From Planotetraspora silvatica (GTDB lineage Bacteria > Actinomycetota > Actinomycetes > Streptosporangiales > Streptosporangiaceae), in NCBI RefSeq assembly GCF_016863315.1, contig NZ_BOOQ01000010.1, forward strand, positions 168,997 through 232,996: a stretch of DNA of 64,000 bases, given 5' to 3'. Below are positions 17,397 to 20,518 of the stretch, piece by piece (the first letter of the stretch is position 1; each line of letters begins with the position of its first letter). The notes beneath the pieces were generated by a model that was not told the origin of the DNA, searched no databases, and was given only the letters and a program-made list of their open reading frames with translations. The position numbers and the translations under genes were made by a program.

Positions 17397-18980
17397 TCAG
17401 AACGGCCAGTCGGCCGACCTGCCCGCCTCGAGCAGCGGGATCAGCCTGAACGACGCGTCGGAGAACCCGCCGAACTCGTGACGGTTTCCCTGACCCGTCG
17501 GCATCGCCGCCGCGCGGTACCCCTGCAGGTTGAAGCCGTACAGGGGCACGCTCGCCGGCACCGCGTCGGTGACGCCGCCCGCGTAGTGGCCGGTCACGGT
17601 CTGCATGTCCGACAGGATCACCACCCGGTCATGGCCCTTCCACGAGCGCCGCAACGAGTCGGCGATCCGTGTTCCGTGGCCGACCTCGCCGATCCGGCCG
17701 CAGAACCGGTCGACCTCGCGCAGCACCGAGGCGCCGGACCGGATCTCGTGCCGGAACGTCCCGTCGGCGAAGCCGACGAGGTCGACCTGGTCGCCGCGCG
17801 CCGCGAGCGTCACGCCGAACAGCGCGGCCGCCTGGACCGGCGTGACCGTCGACCGAGCCGAGACCGCCCCGGACGACATGGACGCCGAGGTGTCCACCAG
17901 GACCAGCGTCCGGCCCTTGAAGGACGGCACGTTGCCGGTGGCGAGCGTCAGCGCCTTGTCCAGCGCGTGGCCCCACCGCAGCGACGGCGCGTTGCGGTAC
18001 GCCGAGTAGAACCGGAACGGCAGCTGCCGGGACCTGGAGACCTCCTCCGGGTCGGCCAGCTTGGCCAGGATCTGCCCGGCGACCTCGTCGCCGATGCCCG
18101 CCTGGTCGAAGTTCCGCAGGTTCCGCAGCAGCGCCATGTAGCCCATCGACGGGATCACCGTCGACCAGGCCTGCGCGTCCATCGGGCCCTGCGACCATCC
18201 GGCGAGCGCCTCCCATGTCATGCCCGCGGAACGCAGACGGCCGGGGTCGGCGGCCATGACCGTGCGCCGCTCCGCCACCGGCAGCGCCAGCAACTCGGCG
18301 CGTCGGCGCAACATCCACAGCGACTCCGGAATCGGCTTGTCCCGGCCGTGGCGCCGGTCGAGCGCGTGCGTGAACAGGTCGCCCTGCGCGGGCTTGTCGT
18401 CGGCCGCCGTGGGGTGGACGAGGTCGATCACGTCGCCGAAGCGGAAACCGCTGGTCCCGCTGTCGTACTTGGCCAGCGACCGCTCGGTGTACAGGCGCTG
18501 GACGGCGTCGGCGACGCCGCGCTTGACCGGCTTCGGGATCGCCCGGCCGTACCGGGAGGTCCAGTAGGCGAGAGCCTCGCCGGGCTCGTCGGCGCGCTGC
18601 AAGACGGACGCGACCAGGTCGCGGTTGCCGCCGTGCAGGCCGGCCGCGAGACGGGCCCTGACCGCCTCGAGCGCGGCGACGACGGGCGCGGACCGCATGT
18701 TGGCCTCGCCGCGCAGCCACGGGAGGAAACGGGCCATCCAGTCGAGGTCCTCGACGGCGACCTGGTGGACGAGCGCGCGGAAGCGCGCGTCGCGGTCACC
18801 GGCCTTCTCGTAGAAGGTGTTCTCGCCGACCATGTTGGAGACCGCGAGGAGGAAGAGCTCGCCCTTCGCGTCGCGGATGTACCCGGGCGCGCCCTCGTGG
18901 GTGCGGATGCCGGGGGTGGCCCCGGTCGTGACCGGGCTCGTGGTGGCCGGGCGCGCGGCGGTCGTGTTGAACTTCGACAT
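17397..18980 (-). CDS. rsr: TROVE-domain protein, bacterial Ro60 orthologue (Rsr)
   Basis: A 527-aa Ro60 homologue. An N-terminal HEAT-repeat ring binds Y RNA on its outside and RNA 3' ends through its hole, and a C-terminal vWA domain completes the ring. Recognisable are YIRDAKGELFLLAVSNMVGE, FLPWLRGEANMRSAPVVAALE and the vWA metal site LVDTSASMSSG (DxSxS), with the later residue in FADGTF. It acts in RNA quality control and stress recovery, usually as an RNP with a Y RNA and sometimes PNPase. ATG 18980 is chosen over upstream in-frame codons because AGGAAGGGG lies at the right distance. The same strand upstream holds four Y-RNA-like units, so the RNP partners are probably encoded in cis. 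No rtcB neighbour is seen. Confidence 0.93.
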   Translation of the reverse strand: MSKFNTTAARPATTSPVTTGATPGIRTHEGAPGYIRDAKGELFLLAVSNMVGENTFYEKAGDRDARFRALVHQVAVEDLDWMARFLPWLRGEANMRSAPVVAALEAVRARLAAGLHGGNRDLVASVLQRADEPGEALAYWTSRYGRAIPKPVKRGVADAVQRLYTERSLAKYDSGTSGFRFGDVIDLVHPTAADDKPAQGDLFTHALDRRHGRDKPIPESLWMLRRRAELLALPVAERRTVMAADPGRLRSAGMTWEALAGWSQGPMDAQAWSTVIPSMGYMALLRNLRNFDQAGIGDEVAGQILAKLADPEEVSRSRQLPFRFYSAYRNAPSLRWGHALDKALTLATGNVPSFKGRTLVLVDTSASMSSGAVSARSTVTPVQAAALFGVTLAARGDQVDLVGFADGTFRHEIRSGASVLREVDRFCGRIGEVGHGTRIADSLRRSWKGHDRVVILSDMQTVTGHYAGGVTDAVPASVPLYGFNLQGYRAAAMPTGQGNRHEFGGFSDASFRLIPLLEAGRSADWPF

Positions 18981-18985
18981 GGGAA

Positions 18986-19014
18986 CGGGCCCCTTCCTGT
19001 GTGGGAGGAGCCCG
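18986..19014 (-). promoter_or_regulatory. 5'-UTR hairpin overlapping the rsr ribosome-binding site
   Basis: CGGGCTCCT (19014-19006) pairs with AGGGGCCCG (18994-18986), nine pairs with one G-U, 11-base loop. The Shine-Dalgarno-like AGGAAGGGG (18998-18990) lies partly in the loop and partly in the stem. It could end the Y-RNA transcript, or hide the ribosome site until bound; which is not known. Confidence 0.45.
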
Positions 19015-19021
19015 CGTTCAG

Positions 19022-19168
19022 AGTTCGTGCCCGAGATCGAGATCGGCGACGGAGCCAAGTGCTCTATCCAGCTGAGCTACCGGCCGGACACGCCGGCCGG
19101 GCAGGACTCGAACCTGCGACCGCTCGATCCCCTATCGAAGTAACCGTCACCTGCGCACCGGGCACATT
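19022..19168 (-). ncRNA. Y-RNA-like unit 4 with permuted tRNA-like domain (Arg-type D-arm)
   Basis: The unit nearest to rsr. Terminal stem GTGCCCG (19165-19159)/CGGGCAC (19033-19027). The 5' internal loop is GTGCGCA and the 3' side ends in GATCT. Then an 8-bp stem GGTGACGG/CCGTCGCC, followed by TTACTTC. The apex is tRNA-like but in permuted order: hairpin TTCGA-TAGGGGA-TCGAG with a 7-base loop, T-arm GCAGG-TTCGAGT-CCTGC (19117-19101), an acceptor-like palindrome CCGGCCGG-CGTGT-CCGGCCGG (19100-19080) closed by five bases, and D-arm GCTC-AGCTGGATA-GAGC (19077-19061). This matches the layout of YrlA-type bacterial Y RNAs, tRNA mimics bound by Rsr. End points are set from the stems, not mapped. 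Confidence 0.85.
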
Positions 19169-19171
19169 CTG

Positions 19172-19286
19172 AAGTCGTTTCTCCTCCCGAGATCAAAGGT
19201 CGGCGGCAGTGTGCGGGTATCGAAACCCGCCACCCGAAGGTGTTCGACCAATGAAGTAACTGCTGCCAATCGCACCGGGAGGTGCA
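19172..19286 (-). ncRNA. Y-RNA-like unit 3 with T-arm-like hairpin only
   Basis: Terminal stem CCTCCCG (19282-19276)/CGGGAGG (19189-19183), 5' loop GTGCGAT, 3' side ending TTTGATCT, second stem GGCAGCAG/CTGCCGCC with one mismatch, then TTACTTC. The apex holds CACC-TTCG-GGTG, a UUCG tetraloop hairpin, and a T-arm-like GCGGG-TTTCGATA-CCCGC whose loop is one base longer than in tRNA. No D-arm and no acceptor palindrome are present. It shares the scaffold of its neighbours but only part of the tRNA mimicry. Confidence 0.75.
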
Positions 19287-19290
19287 TATT

Positions 19291-19376
19291 AAGTTGTGTC
19301 TCCCCGAGATCAGAGGTGGTACCGGACGGTTTCTTTTGGAGAGAAGTAGCCGGGACCTTCGCACCGGGGAGGTGCA
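19291..19376 (-). ncRNA. Y-RNA-like unit 2, minimal (small hairpin apex)
   Basis: The shortest unit, about 85 nt. Terminal stem CTCCCCG (19371-19365)/CGGGGAG (19306-19300), 5' loop GTGCGAA, 3' side ending CTGATCT, second stem GGTCCCGG/CCGGTACC with one mismatch, then CTACTTC. The apex is only TTCT-CTCCAAA-AGAA; the 7-base loop equals the usual tRNA-Trp anticodon loop (CCA anticodon). No T- or D-arm. It may be a bare Ro-binding RNA or a processing intermediate of the array. Confidence 0.7.
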
Positions 19377-19383
19377 ATATCAA

Positions 19384-19526
19384 GTTGTGTCCCACCCGAG
19401 GTCAGGGCGGCGACGGTAGGTGTCCTGGGCCACTGGACGACACTGGCCGAGGCCAGTGGCGGGATTCGAACCCGCGTTGCCGCTTTGAAAGAGCGAAGTA
19501 ACCGTTGCCTGCGCACCGGGAGGTAC
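19384..19526 (-). ncRNA. Y-RNA-like unit 1 with complete permuted tRNA-Glu-like domain
   Basis: The unit farthest from rsr. Terminal stem CCTCCCG (19523-19517)/CGGGTGG (19398-19392) with one T-T mismatch, 5' loop GTGCGCA, 3' side ending TGACCT, second stem GGCAACGG/CCGTCGCC with one mismatch, then TTACTTC. The apex holds all tRNA arms in permuted order: anticodon-like TCGCT-CTTTCAA-AGCGG (UUC, Glu), a 4-base variable stretch, T-arm GCGGG-TTCGAAT-CCCGC (19475-19459), acceptor CACTGGCC-TC-GGCCAGTG (19458-19441) closed by two bases, and D-arm GTCC-AGTGGCCCA-GGAC (19438-19422). It resembles tRNA-Glu with its ends joined and reopened between D and anticodon arms. Inferred to be an Rsr-bound tRNA mimic; not a normal tRNA gene. 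Confidence 0.85.
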
Positions 19527-19536
19527 AAGATCAGAC

Positions 19537-19609
19537 GATATCCGGTGAGATATCAGGCGCGCATTCTATTTTTCGCGGCGATGGGCGCATTATGACGGTG
19601 GGCGCATTT
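19537..19609 (-). promoter_or_regulatory. Repeat-rich region upstream of the Y-RNA array
   Basis: On the minus strand AATGCGC occurs three times (starting near 19608, 19591 and 19565), the first two as AATGCGCCCA. Closer to unit 1, GATATC occurs twice (19554-19549 and 19542-19537) around TCACCG. Nothing here codes for protein. Position just before the first unit makes it the likely promoter/operator for the array; I cannot assign clear -35/-10 boxes. Confidence 0.4.
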
Positions 19610-19684
19610 TGCCGATGGGCTGGAAGTCGGCGCGCCCTTCTTCAATGTGCTTCGCCCGACTGGAGGCGCGGCGTCTCCGTGAGG

Positions 19685-20518
19685 TCAGATGCTGCGGTGG
19701 GTGCTGACGGCGGCCCGGCGTTCGGCGAGCCTCGGCGCGAGGGCGGCGTCCACGGCGAGCGGATCCCGCGTGTTGAGCTCCTGCAACGCGCGGCGTTCGG
19801 GCAGTTGCGTGTCGATGTCGACGTGGCGGGCCTCCAGGCCGGCCACGATCTCGGCGACCACCTCGTCGACGGGACGGAGTCCGTACCCCAGGTCCGGGCC
19901 CGCCTGGGACGAGGCCATCATCGGCGTGTCGACCGGGCCGGGGTAGACCGTGGCCACGTGGACGCCGCTGCCGATCAACTCGCGGCGCAGTGCTTCGTCG
20001 AATCGGGTGAGACCGGCCTTGGTCGCCGCGTAGGTGGCGTAGTAGGGCAGGCCGACCAGGGCGGAGGCCGAGGCGATGCCGACCAGGGCGGCGTGTCCGT
20101 GCCGTGTGCCCGCGGCGCGCAGGTGCGGCAGCGCCGCCTTGGCCGCGAGTATGGGGGCGACCAGATTGAGCTCGACCATGGCGCGTATGTCGGACACGTC
20201 GATGTCGTCGAGCGCGCCGGCCCGCACGTTCCCCGCGTTGTTGACGAGGATGTCGAGGCCGCCGAGCGCGGCGACGGTCTCCGCGATCACGCGTTCGGGC
20301 TCCCCGTCGACGGCGAGATCGGCGGTGATCGTGTGGGCGGTGCCGCCACGCTCGGCGACCAGCGCAGCGGTCTCGGCGAGAGGTCCGGGACGTCGGCCGG
20401 CCAGGGCGAGCACACCGTGACGGGAGGCCAGTTCCAGGGCCAGGGCACGGCCGATCCCGCTGCCCGCACCGGTGATGAGGGTGCGGCGTGCGTGTAGATC
20501 AAGGTGAGAGCTGTTCAT
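19685..20518 (-). CDS. Short-chain dehydrogenase/reductase
   Basis: A 277-aa classical SDR: TGAGSGIG nucleotide motif, NNAGN, catalytic Ser in IASASALVGLPYY and YAATKAG as the YxxxK site. The PGPVDTPMM loop after it is typical of fatty-acid or alcohol-type SDRs. Start ATG 20518. The gene diverges from a TetR regulator across an interval with two TTGACA/TGTCAA inverted repeats, so it is the likely regulatory target. It lies upstream of the Y-RNA array on the same strand, but its stop is about 155 bp away and the link is probably accidental. Confidence 0.88.
   Translation of the reverse strand: MNSSHLDLHARRTLITGAGSGIGRALALELASRHGVLALAGRRPGPLAETAALVAERGGTAHTITADLAVDGEPERVIAETVAALGGLDILVNNAGNVRAGALDDIDVSDIRAMVELNLVAPILAAKAALPHLRAAGTRHGHAALVGIASASALVGLPYYATYAATKAGLTRFDEALRRELIGSGVHVATVYPGPVDTPMMASSQAGPDLGYGLRPVDEVVAEIVAGLEARHVDIDTQLPERRALQELNTRDPLAVDAALAPRLAERRAAVSTHRSI

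Follow-up and report, generated by a model that had tools for sequence, protein, structure and literature searches.

A predicted array of Y RNAs with permuted tRNA-like apices upstream of a Ro60 gene in Planotetraspora silvatica

In a stretch of 64,000 nucleotides from the 8.66 Mb genome of the actinomycete Planotetraspora silvatica (hereafter the window, whose numbering is used throughout), the region upstream of rsr, the gene for a Ro60-like protein, holds an array of four units that share one scaffold, a Ro-type stem, and differ in their apices. The array is real, and it is almost certainly an array of Y RNAs in which tRNA parts appear in permuted order. In units 1 and 4, this order is anticodon arm, T arm, closed acceptor hairpin and D arm, with the Ro-type stem joining the D and anticodon arms. 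Such an array is supported by a covarying scaffold, by the permuted parts themselves, by exact anticodon loops in many related units, by fast change of the anticodon triplet and by adjacency to Ro60 genes in bacteria and actinophages. We suggest, at a little short of an even chance, that the units act as Ro60-held decoys for nucleases that cut anticodons.

Scaffold and apices of the four units

The array (19523-19027) lies on the minus strand, as do rsr and all other window features described here. The original prediction of four tandem units on the rsr strand before rsr is confirmed, with units 1 to 4 at 19523-19392, 19371-19300, 19282-19183 and 19165-19027, and the motifs it gave as common to them (GTGCG(C/A)(A/T), YTACTTC and, on the 3' side, GA(T/C)CT) are present in all four. 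Each unit consists, from 5' to 3', of a basal stem of seven positions, a loop GUGCG(C/A)(A/U), an upper stem of eight positions and UACUUC. The terminal stem, predicted to have 7 bp, is complete in units 2, 3 and 4 and has six of seven pairs in unit 1, while the predicted 8-bp stem is fully paired (one G-U) in unit 4 only; units 1-3 have seven of eight pairs and a single central mismatch, and among 71 related units 35 leave a central position unpaired.

These 71 units are those that, among 229, have anticodon, T and D arms by our criteria. A covariance model built from them (R1) scores 130 bits for unit 4, 109 for unit 1, 43 for unit 2 and 38 for unit 3, the next best match in the window reaching 16.6 bits; because units 1 and 4 are included in the model, the test of it is independent for units 2 and 3 only. 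The alignment of the 71 units has 36 consensus pairs with 93.5% of cells paired and double changes at 27 of the 36 pairs, and its covariation score is 0.437, compared with 0.157 when shuffled and 0.055-0.120 when slid. The stems are thus both kept and compensated in homologues, in line with the original prediction. Two features of Y RNAs and YrlA are found here, namely a predicted basal Ro-binding stem with an internal loop (in our case one that covaries) and an adjoining Ro60 (TROVE) gene.

Above its Ro-type stem, unit 1 carries a complete permuted tRNA-Glu-like apex. The anticodon arm (19480-19496), obtained by folding, has a 5-bp stem and the loop CUUUCAA (19491-19485; triplet UUC), which is identical to the loop of the genome's own tRNA-Glu(UUC). 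It is followed by a T arm (19459-19475, GCGGG-UUCGAAU-CCCGC), an acceptor-like stem with a 4-nt closing loop and no free 3' end (19441-19458) and a D arm (19422-19438, GUCCAGUGGCCCAGGAC, that is, GUCC-AGUGGCCCA-GGAC). When the apex halves are compared gap-free with 50 distinct own tRNAs, both are closest to tRNA-Glu (0.83 and 0.91, the D-arm stretch being 91% identical), and a DNA search of the whole genome with the array gives, at E<=0.001, a sole other match, between a stretch of unit 1 and the tRNA-Glu(UUC) gene (86% over 36 bases, E 3.5e-4). Read from its sequence, the apex of unit 1 is a tRNA opened where its D and anticodon arms meet, the point at which the Ro-type stem is inserted, and sealed at its acceptor end.

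Unit 4 likewise combines the Ro-type stem with a complete permuted apex, in this case tRNA-Pro-like, made up of an anticodon arm (19123-19139; loop UAGGGGA at 19134-19128, triplet GGG), a T arm (19101-19117, from folding and comparison), an acceptor-like stem with a 5-nt closing loop (19080-19100) and a D arm (19061-19077, GCUCAGCUGGAUAGAGC). Both halves are closest to the own tRNA-Pro(GGG) (0.77 and 0.84, with Lys and Arg at 0.80 for the second), and two unit 4 orthologues have the loop UUCGGGA, equal to that of the tRNA-Pro(CGG) of the window genome. The short unit 2 has only the Ro-type stem and an anticodon-type hairpin (19331-19345, 4 bp) with the loop CUCCAAA (19341-19335) of the own tRNA-Trp(CCA), the entire hairpin being closest to a Thr tRNA (0.73) and not to Trp, and unit 3 has the Ro-type stem, a GC hairpin and a T-arm-like hairpin (19230-19213). 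Exact anticodon loops of real tRNAs are therefore found in units 1 and 2 and not in units 3 and 4; the permuted T, acceptor and D arms known from Y RNA/YrlA are found in units 1 and 4 and not in unit 2, unit 3 having its T-arm-like hairpin alone. The original prediction gave an incomplete account of the apices, having missed the tRNA parts, anticodon arms included.

The tRNA-Pro(ggg) that ARAGORN reports at 19092-19164 is most likely false, as it is unit 4 and overlaps part of the Ro-type stem. The complementarity of CCAA in the unit 2 loop (19341-19335) and UUGG in unit 3 is seen in the window species and some sister species; as a general rule, kissing of this kind fails, a 5-base loop complement being present in 20 of 83 loci compared with 18.3 after shuffling (maximum 27).

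With the permutation undone by script, ARAGORN reads a tRNA in 68 of the 71 units, which had been selected beforehand for possessing three arms (tRNA-Glu(ttc) in unit 1 and tRNA-Pro(ggg) in unit 4), compared with 11/71 in the native order and 0/71 in each of five shuffles. Its triplet is off by one base from ours in 3 of the 68 (L003, L006, L106), no full triplet is given for L136, and in a few further units its loop is unlike the one from the longest-stem rule. RNAalifold, run on the same 71 units, proposes the Ro-type stem and the T, acceptor and D helices and does not propose the anticodon helix, which may reflect the mixing, in the alignment, of two registers offset by a single base. Pairing in the anticodon helix reaches 88% in this alignment, a value that is biased upward because rows were picked for such a hairpin; in the 55 rows of one register, one anticodon-stem pair is G-C in 28, C-G in 23, A-U in 2 and U-A in 2, and the kinds of pair were not selected. 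Run on short units (39 of 47 found), RNAalifold gives the basal stem and three upper-stem pairs and no anticodon hairpin. A third class of 21 units has an early T arm.

Permuted tRNA genes occur in some algae and archaea, where the 3' half stands before the 5' half and the product is a normal tRNA. The reading of 68 of the 71 units as tRNAs, once the permutation is undone, would suit genes of this type, in which the Ro stem would be excised and the halves joined into working tRNAs, yet we regard this as very improbable for the array. The order of acceptor, D, anticodon and T arms with a free 3' end that defines a tRNA gene is permuted here; unlike in the algal and archaeal genes, the acceptor is a closed hairpin, whose short loops leave scant room for a mature 3' end, and the join bears a conserved stem, the stretches beside the Ro-type loop being among the best conserved columns. 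In addition, the short units bear the anticodon hairpin alone, and the genome already has tRNA genes for UUC, CCA and GGG.

Anticodon loops and the turnover of their triplets

An anticodon-like loop was first noticed in 118 units (the window and 42 of the 45 loci of a first set), and the rule for it was fixed afterwards: a hairpin of at least 4 bp with a 7-nt loop Y-U-NNN-R-N, starting 0-3 nt after UAC. From a total of 256 units, 27 were dropped as their first 70 bases repeat those of another unit; 115 units form the discovery set, and 114 units from 40 loci, drawn from 49 previously unused loci in genomes of the window's order and hence related to the discovery set, were held out. The rule is met by 46 of the 115 discovery units (shuffle mean 1.04, maximum 5 in 200 runs) and by 33 of the 114 held-out units (mean 1.06, maximum 4 in 200 runs). 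Placed at other offsets, it is met 0 to 22 times among 188-229 units, most often at offset 16, a peak that we read as the T loop, at least in part.

The loops that meet the rule have 30 different triplets, and many belong to real tRNAs: 50 of the 79 equal the anticodon loop of a tRNA of the window genome (column-shuffled mean 17.6, maximum 30 in 2000 runs), as do 16 of the 40 distinct loops (mean 5.7, maximum 14 in 5000 runs). Between one and five of the 79 could be T-loop-like (UUCGAAU, UUCGAGA). The arrays thus carry real-tRNA anticodon loops, as a decoy for anticodon nucleases should.

The triplets turn over quickly. In seven groups of units taken as orthologous in related species (31 units), the fraction of comparisons that differ is 0.565 for the triplet (positions 34-36), 0.262 for positions 32, 33, 37 and 38 and 0.134 for other columns, so that the triplet changes roughly four times as often as these other columns; among 146 three-column windows, just one, in the D loop, is more variable. 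In unit 1 of the window species and four other Planotetraspora, for example, the loop is CUUUCAA, CUCUCAA or CUGCAAA, and its flanks are unchanged.

Triplets that are free to vary while most of the unit is kept would be expected if only the shape of the arm mattered. This would be the case if the tRNA-like apex recruited PNPase or another effector to Rsr, the anticodon arm being a feature of the handle and the triplets drifting freely. Tethering of PNPase by Y RNA, as in RYPER, is a studied role (PMC7790460, PMC8394870; the papers cited here by PMC identifier were available in part, and what is said of them refers to those parts). We consider this explanation unlikely, though a serious one. 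The loops match real tRNA loops beyond what column composition gives, and the triplet therefore goes with positions 32, 37 and 38 as it does in a tRNA, a link that pure triplet drift would erase; moreover, a single effector needs no set of different apices at each locus.

Arrays beside Ro60 genes in bacteria and actinophages

We searched 150 genomes of the window's order, Streptosporangiales, with R1, scoring 22 first-look candidates per genome and counting matches of at least 60 bits as strong; the filters were strict, so weaker units are lost. Ro60 genes adjoin 97 of the 104 strong matches, one of these calls being based on 37 residues at the edge of a contig: 81 are no more than 3 kb from a window-type Rsr, and 16 stand directly before a second Ro60 family. 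An Rsr match is present in 50 of the 63 genomes with a strong match, and a strong match in 50 of the 58 genomes with an Rsr match. These results support the core of the original prediction, i.e., several Y-RNA-like units before a Ro60 gene that share a scaffold and differ in their apices. Its view that four units are unusual does not stand, two to five per locus being usual by a simple motif count: 0, 1, 2, 3 and 4 units are found in 3, 3, 15, 15 and 9 of the 45 loci of the first set, and 0 to 5 units in 2, 3, 17, 10, 14 and 3 of the 49 loci of the second, the two sets overlapping in species.

The second Ro60 family emerged from 14 array loci examined that have no adjoining window-type Rsr, 13 of them in genomes lacking an Rsr match and one (G029) in a genome with a weak match on another contig. 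A divergent Ro60 gene lies directly downstream of the array in 13 of the 14, and the remaining locus shows a 37-residue start at a contig edge; seven of the genes were identified by Pfam TROVE and vWA_Ro60 and six by 65-67% identity to one of those. These 14 loci hold the 16 strong matches mentioned above, and 7 of 29 distinct second-family units (32 matches, 3 repeats dropped) have the hairpin (shuffle mean 0.24, maximum 3 in 500 runs). Of the other seven strong matches, the six whose surroundings were examined, at five loci (L157, L158, L159, L160, L161), have no Ro60 gene in the 6-9.5 kb covered; their genomes have an Rsr match elsewhere, and their arrays have the same scaffold.

Arrays of this type are also found in phages. 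There are 94 phage records with a Ro relative, and in 10 of 10 actinophage loci examined, a full-length R1 match of at least 39 bits lies close to the Ro gene, on its upstream side in nine cases and downstream of it in Atuin. The hairpin, judged by the strict rule, is present in 6 of 37 distinct phage units (shuffle mean 0.24, maximum 3 in 500 runs). At several of these loci, the Ro gene stands amid tRNA genes, and at one it comes after an RNA ligase gene. Four of the 10 records (GiJojo, VanLee, Frankenweenie, Alone3) have a unit annotated as a tRNA, the annotated genes that overlap Y-RNA-type units lying upstream of the Ro gene at L165 2269-2343, L169 2204-2275, L172 2245-2335 and L173 2274-2347; Y RNA units thus likely explain some false tRNA annotations. 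A metagenome-assembled genome of the Micromonosporaceae has 21 tRNA matches in a row before its Y array and rsr (L016 87-2218), like tRNA-rich phages.

In phage locus L173, a partial R1 match (623-701; model positions 27-105) covers the 3' half of a tRNA-Thr gene together with the 5' half of the tRNA-Thr gene that follows it. The permuted body may have arisen from tandem tRNA genes, and many partial matches of the 150-genome search may likewise span such genes. With so plausible a source at hand, the units could be regarded as relics, that is, pieces of tRNA genes captured by Y RNAs and left with a functionless anticodon arm. We find this improbable, both because the anticodon-stem columns covary (in the counts of pairs given above, which are biased in that rows were picked for the hairpin) and because the arm occurs next to Ro60 genes of two families and also in phages.

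In the window, rsr (17397-18980) encodes 527 amino acids with a TROVE domain (PF05731, E 1.8e-14) and a weak match to vWA (PF13519, E 1.2e-4, below the Pfam cut-off). The PDB relatives of this Rsr by sequence are 9l5y, 9kop and 2nvo, and it is 97% identical to the Rsr of Planotetraspora mira; the arrays of the window and of four other Planotetraspora correspond unit by unit. On the far side of the array from rsr lies an SDR gene (20518-19685). A scan of 18950-19700 for promoters and terminators found none. Spacers between units measure 14-20 nt in 95 of 125 neighbour pairs, with 16-18 nt commonest (19391-19372 in the window is an example), and frequently contain ACAACTT; spacers with this motif could signal processing or belong to a promoter. 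A paralogue of Rsr in the same genome (43% identical, on contig C52) has upstream of it a stretch (L126 1830-1941) that resembles one further Y-type unit, ending in CCTCCCG and CGGGAGG with GTG after CCTCCCG; R1 gives no match at the paralogue locus.

RtcB genes are present in 145 of the 150 genomes, the window's included. They figure in another explanation, in which Rsr would stay blocked by a Y RNA as long as the mock anticodon arm is intact; cutting of that arm by an anticodon nuclease would open the Rsr ring, which would then take in the damaged tRNAs for degradation or repair. A review title cited by PMC8394870 refers to Y RNAs as gates and tethers, and a repair enzyme carried so widely would suit this scheme, which we nonetheless judge to be distinctly less likely than tethering of an effector. 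RtcB is near universal in the order, so its co-occurrence is uninformative as evidence; in the window genome it is matched on contigs that do not carry rsr, and none of seven neighbouring frames scanned is RtcA or RtcB.

Proposed function and relation to known systems

The units keep those parts that an anticodon nuclease would see, namely the arms of the elbow and an anticodon loop in which position 33 is mostly U and position 37 A or G, and this is why we favor a decoy function over its main rivals, tethering of an effector and nuclease-triggered opening of Rsr. Each unit would be transcribed and trimmed into a separate RNA, and the stem common to these predicted Y RNAs very probably binds Rsr, docking as in the Y RNAs that have been studied, and the tRNA-like end would face outward. 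A nuclease that recognizes a tRNA body and anticodon loop would then bind or cut the mock tRNA, and the real tRNA would be spared; a set of units that differ in their triplets would extend this effect to more nucleases, and the turnover of triplets would follow a changing set of them. Because its acceptor end is closed in a hairpin, the mock tRNA is unchargeable and unusable in translation as drawn. Competitive inhibition of an anticodon nuclease by the tRNA-like domain of YrlA has been suggested earlier (PMC7790460). More tentatively, actinomycetes and their phages could keep a Ro60-mounted library of unchargeable mock tRNAs, entire permuted bodies that each bear a different, fast-changing anticodon, as bait for tRNA-cutting toxins and defense nucleases.

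Several observations weigh against this picture. Single-sequence folding compared with shuffles gives mild z values (-1.6, -1.8, -3.7 and -1.8 for units 1-4), and the free-energy optimum of unit 4 omits its anticodon hairpin; the case for the array therefore rests on comparison and not on energy. Unit 3 has a hairpin of 3 bp at most in the anticodon place, making an anticodon arm unconvincing there, and the unit 4 loop UAGGGGA has A at position 33 and differs from that of the own tRNA-Pro(GGG). All three arms are found in 71 of 229 units, and many have none or the T arm alone, so an anticodon is not required in every unit. Of the 17 loops exclusive to the held-out set, 3 equal a tRNA loop of the window genome, and at least two different triplets are present in only 16 of 83 loci by the strict rule, a few of the loops there being T-loop-like. 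In three Planotetraspora, a Glu-type D arm is kept with a Cys triplet (GCA); body and triplet are thus uncoupled, which counts somewhat against a nuclease that reads both. Finally, Salmonella YrlA is reported not to be cut by the nuclease studied in PMC7790460.

For bacterial Ro60 and its Y RNAs, real and varying anticodon loops lead to a concrete prediction of their role: each triplet would name the tRNA, and hence the kind of nuclease, that its RNA deals with. Given the arrays in phages, several of them amid tRNA genes, Ro60 would have a part in the conflict over tRNAs.

Among known RNAs, the closest relative is YrlA (RF02553), which also lies beside a Ro60 gene and has a basal stem with an internal loop, an upper stem and UAC. 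Like units 1 and 4, it has a T arm, a closed acceptor and a D arm in circularly permuted order (from our reading of the Rfam consensus and from PMC8394870 and PMC11472068), and circular tRNA permutation in a bacterial Y RNA is thus already known (PMC11472068). What sets units 1 and 4 apart is the extra anticodon arm before the T arm, which the Rfam consensus lacks; for YrlA, no arms other than D, T and acceptor arms are named in PMC8394870. The Rfam YrlA model gives window units 47.3 bits (unit 4) and 22.4 bits, where the cut-off is 69, and at that cut-off Rfam finds nothing in the window and no YrlA in 20 related loci. The literature searched, which was available in part and did not include the central Y RNA papers, mentions neither an anticodon arm in a Y RNA nor such an array; we take the array to be a variant of YrlA not previously described in that literature, and an earlier mention elsewhere is possible.

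The rsr-yrlBA-rtcBA RNA repair operon of Salmonella resembles the array in combining Ro60 with more than one Y RNA gene in a context of tRNA damage (PMC7790460), but in the window genome RtcB is on other contigs, and the arrays have two to five units, placed before the Ro60 gene. The Rsr/Y RNA/PNPase complex of Deinococcus radiodurans (RYPER) shares with the window the pairing of Ro60 and Y RNA, and 2nvo resembles the window Rsr with E 1.2e-4. In Listeria phage CKA15, three strongly transcribed regions close to an Rsr-like gene have been proposed to hold Y RNAs, which are also stated to be found in mycobacteriophages (PMC12282133), and TROVE proteins adjoin RNA ligases in jumbo phages (PMC7824862); the available parts of these two papers mention no anticodon arm or mock-tRNA array for the phage Rsr/Y RNA candidates. 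Phage tRNAs altered in their anticodon loops act against VapC, PrrC and colicins (PMC10264068), and such nuclease-escaping tRNAs share with the array tRNA-type anticodon loops in a setting of phage-host conflict (PMC10264068, PMC11555353). Unlike those phage tRNAs, which work in translation, the units of the array are unchargeable as drawn and are mounted on a Ro-type stem.

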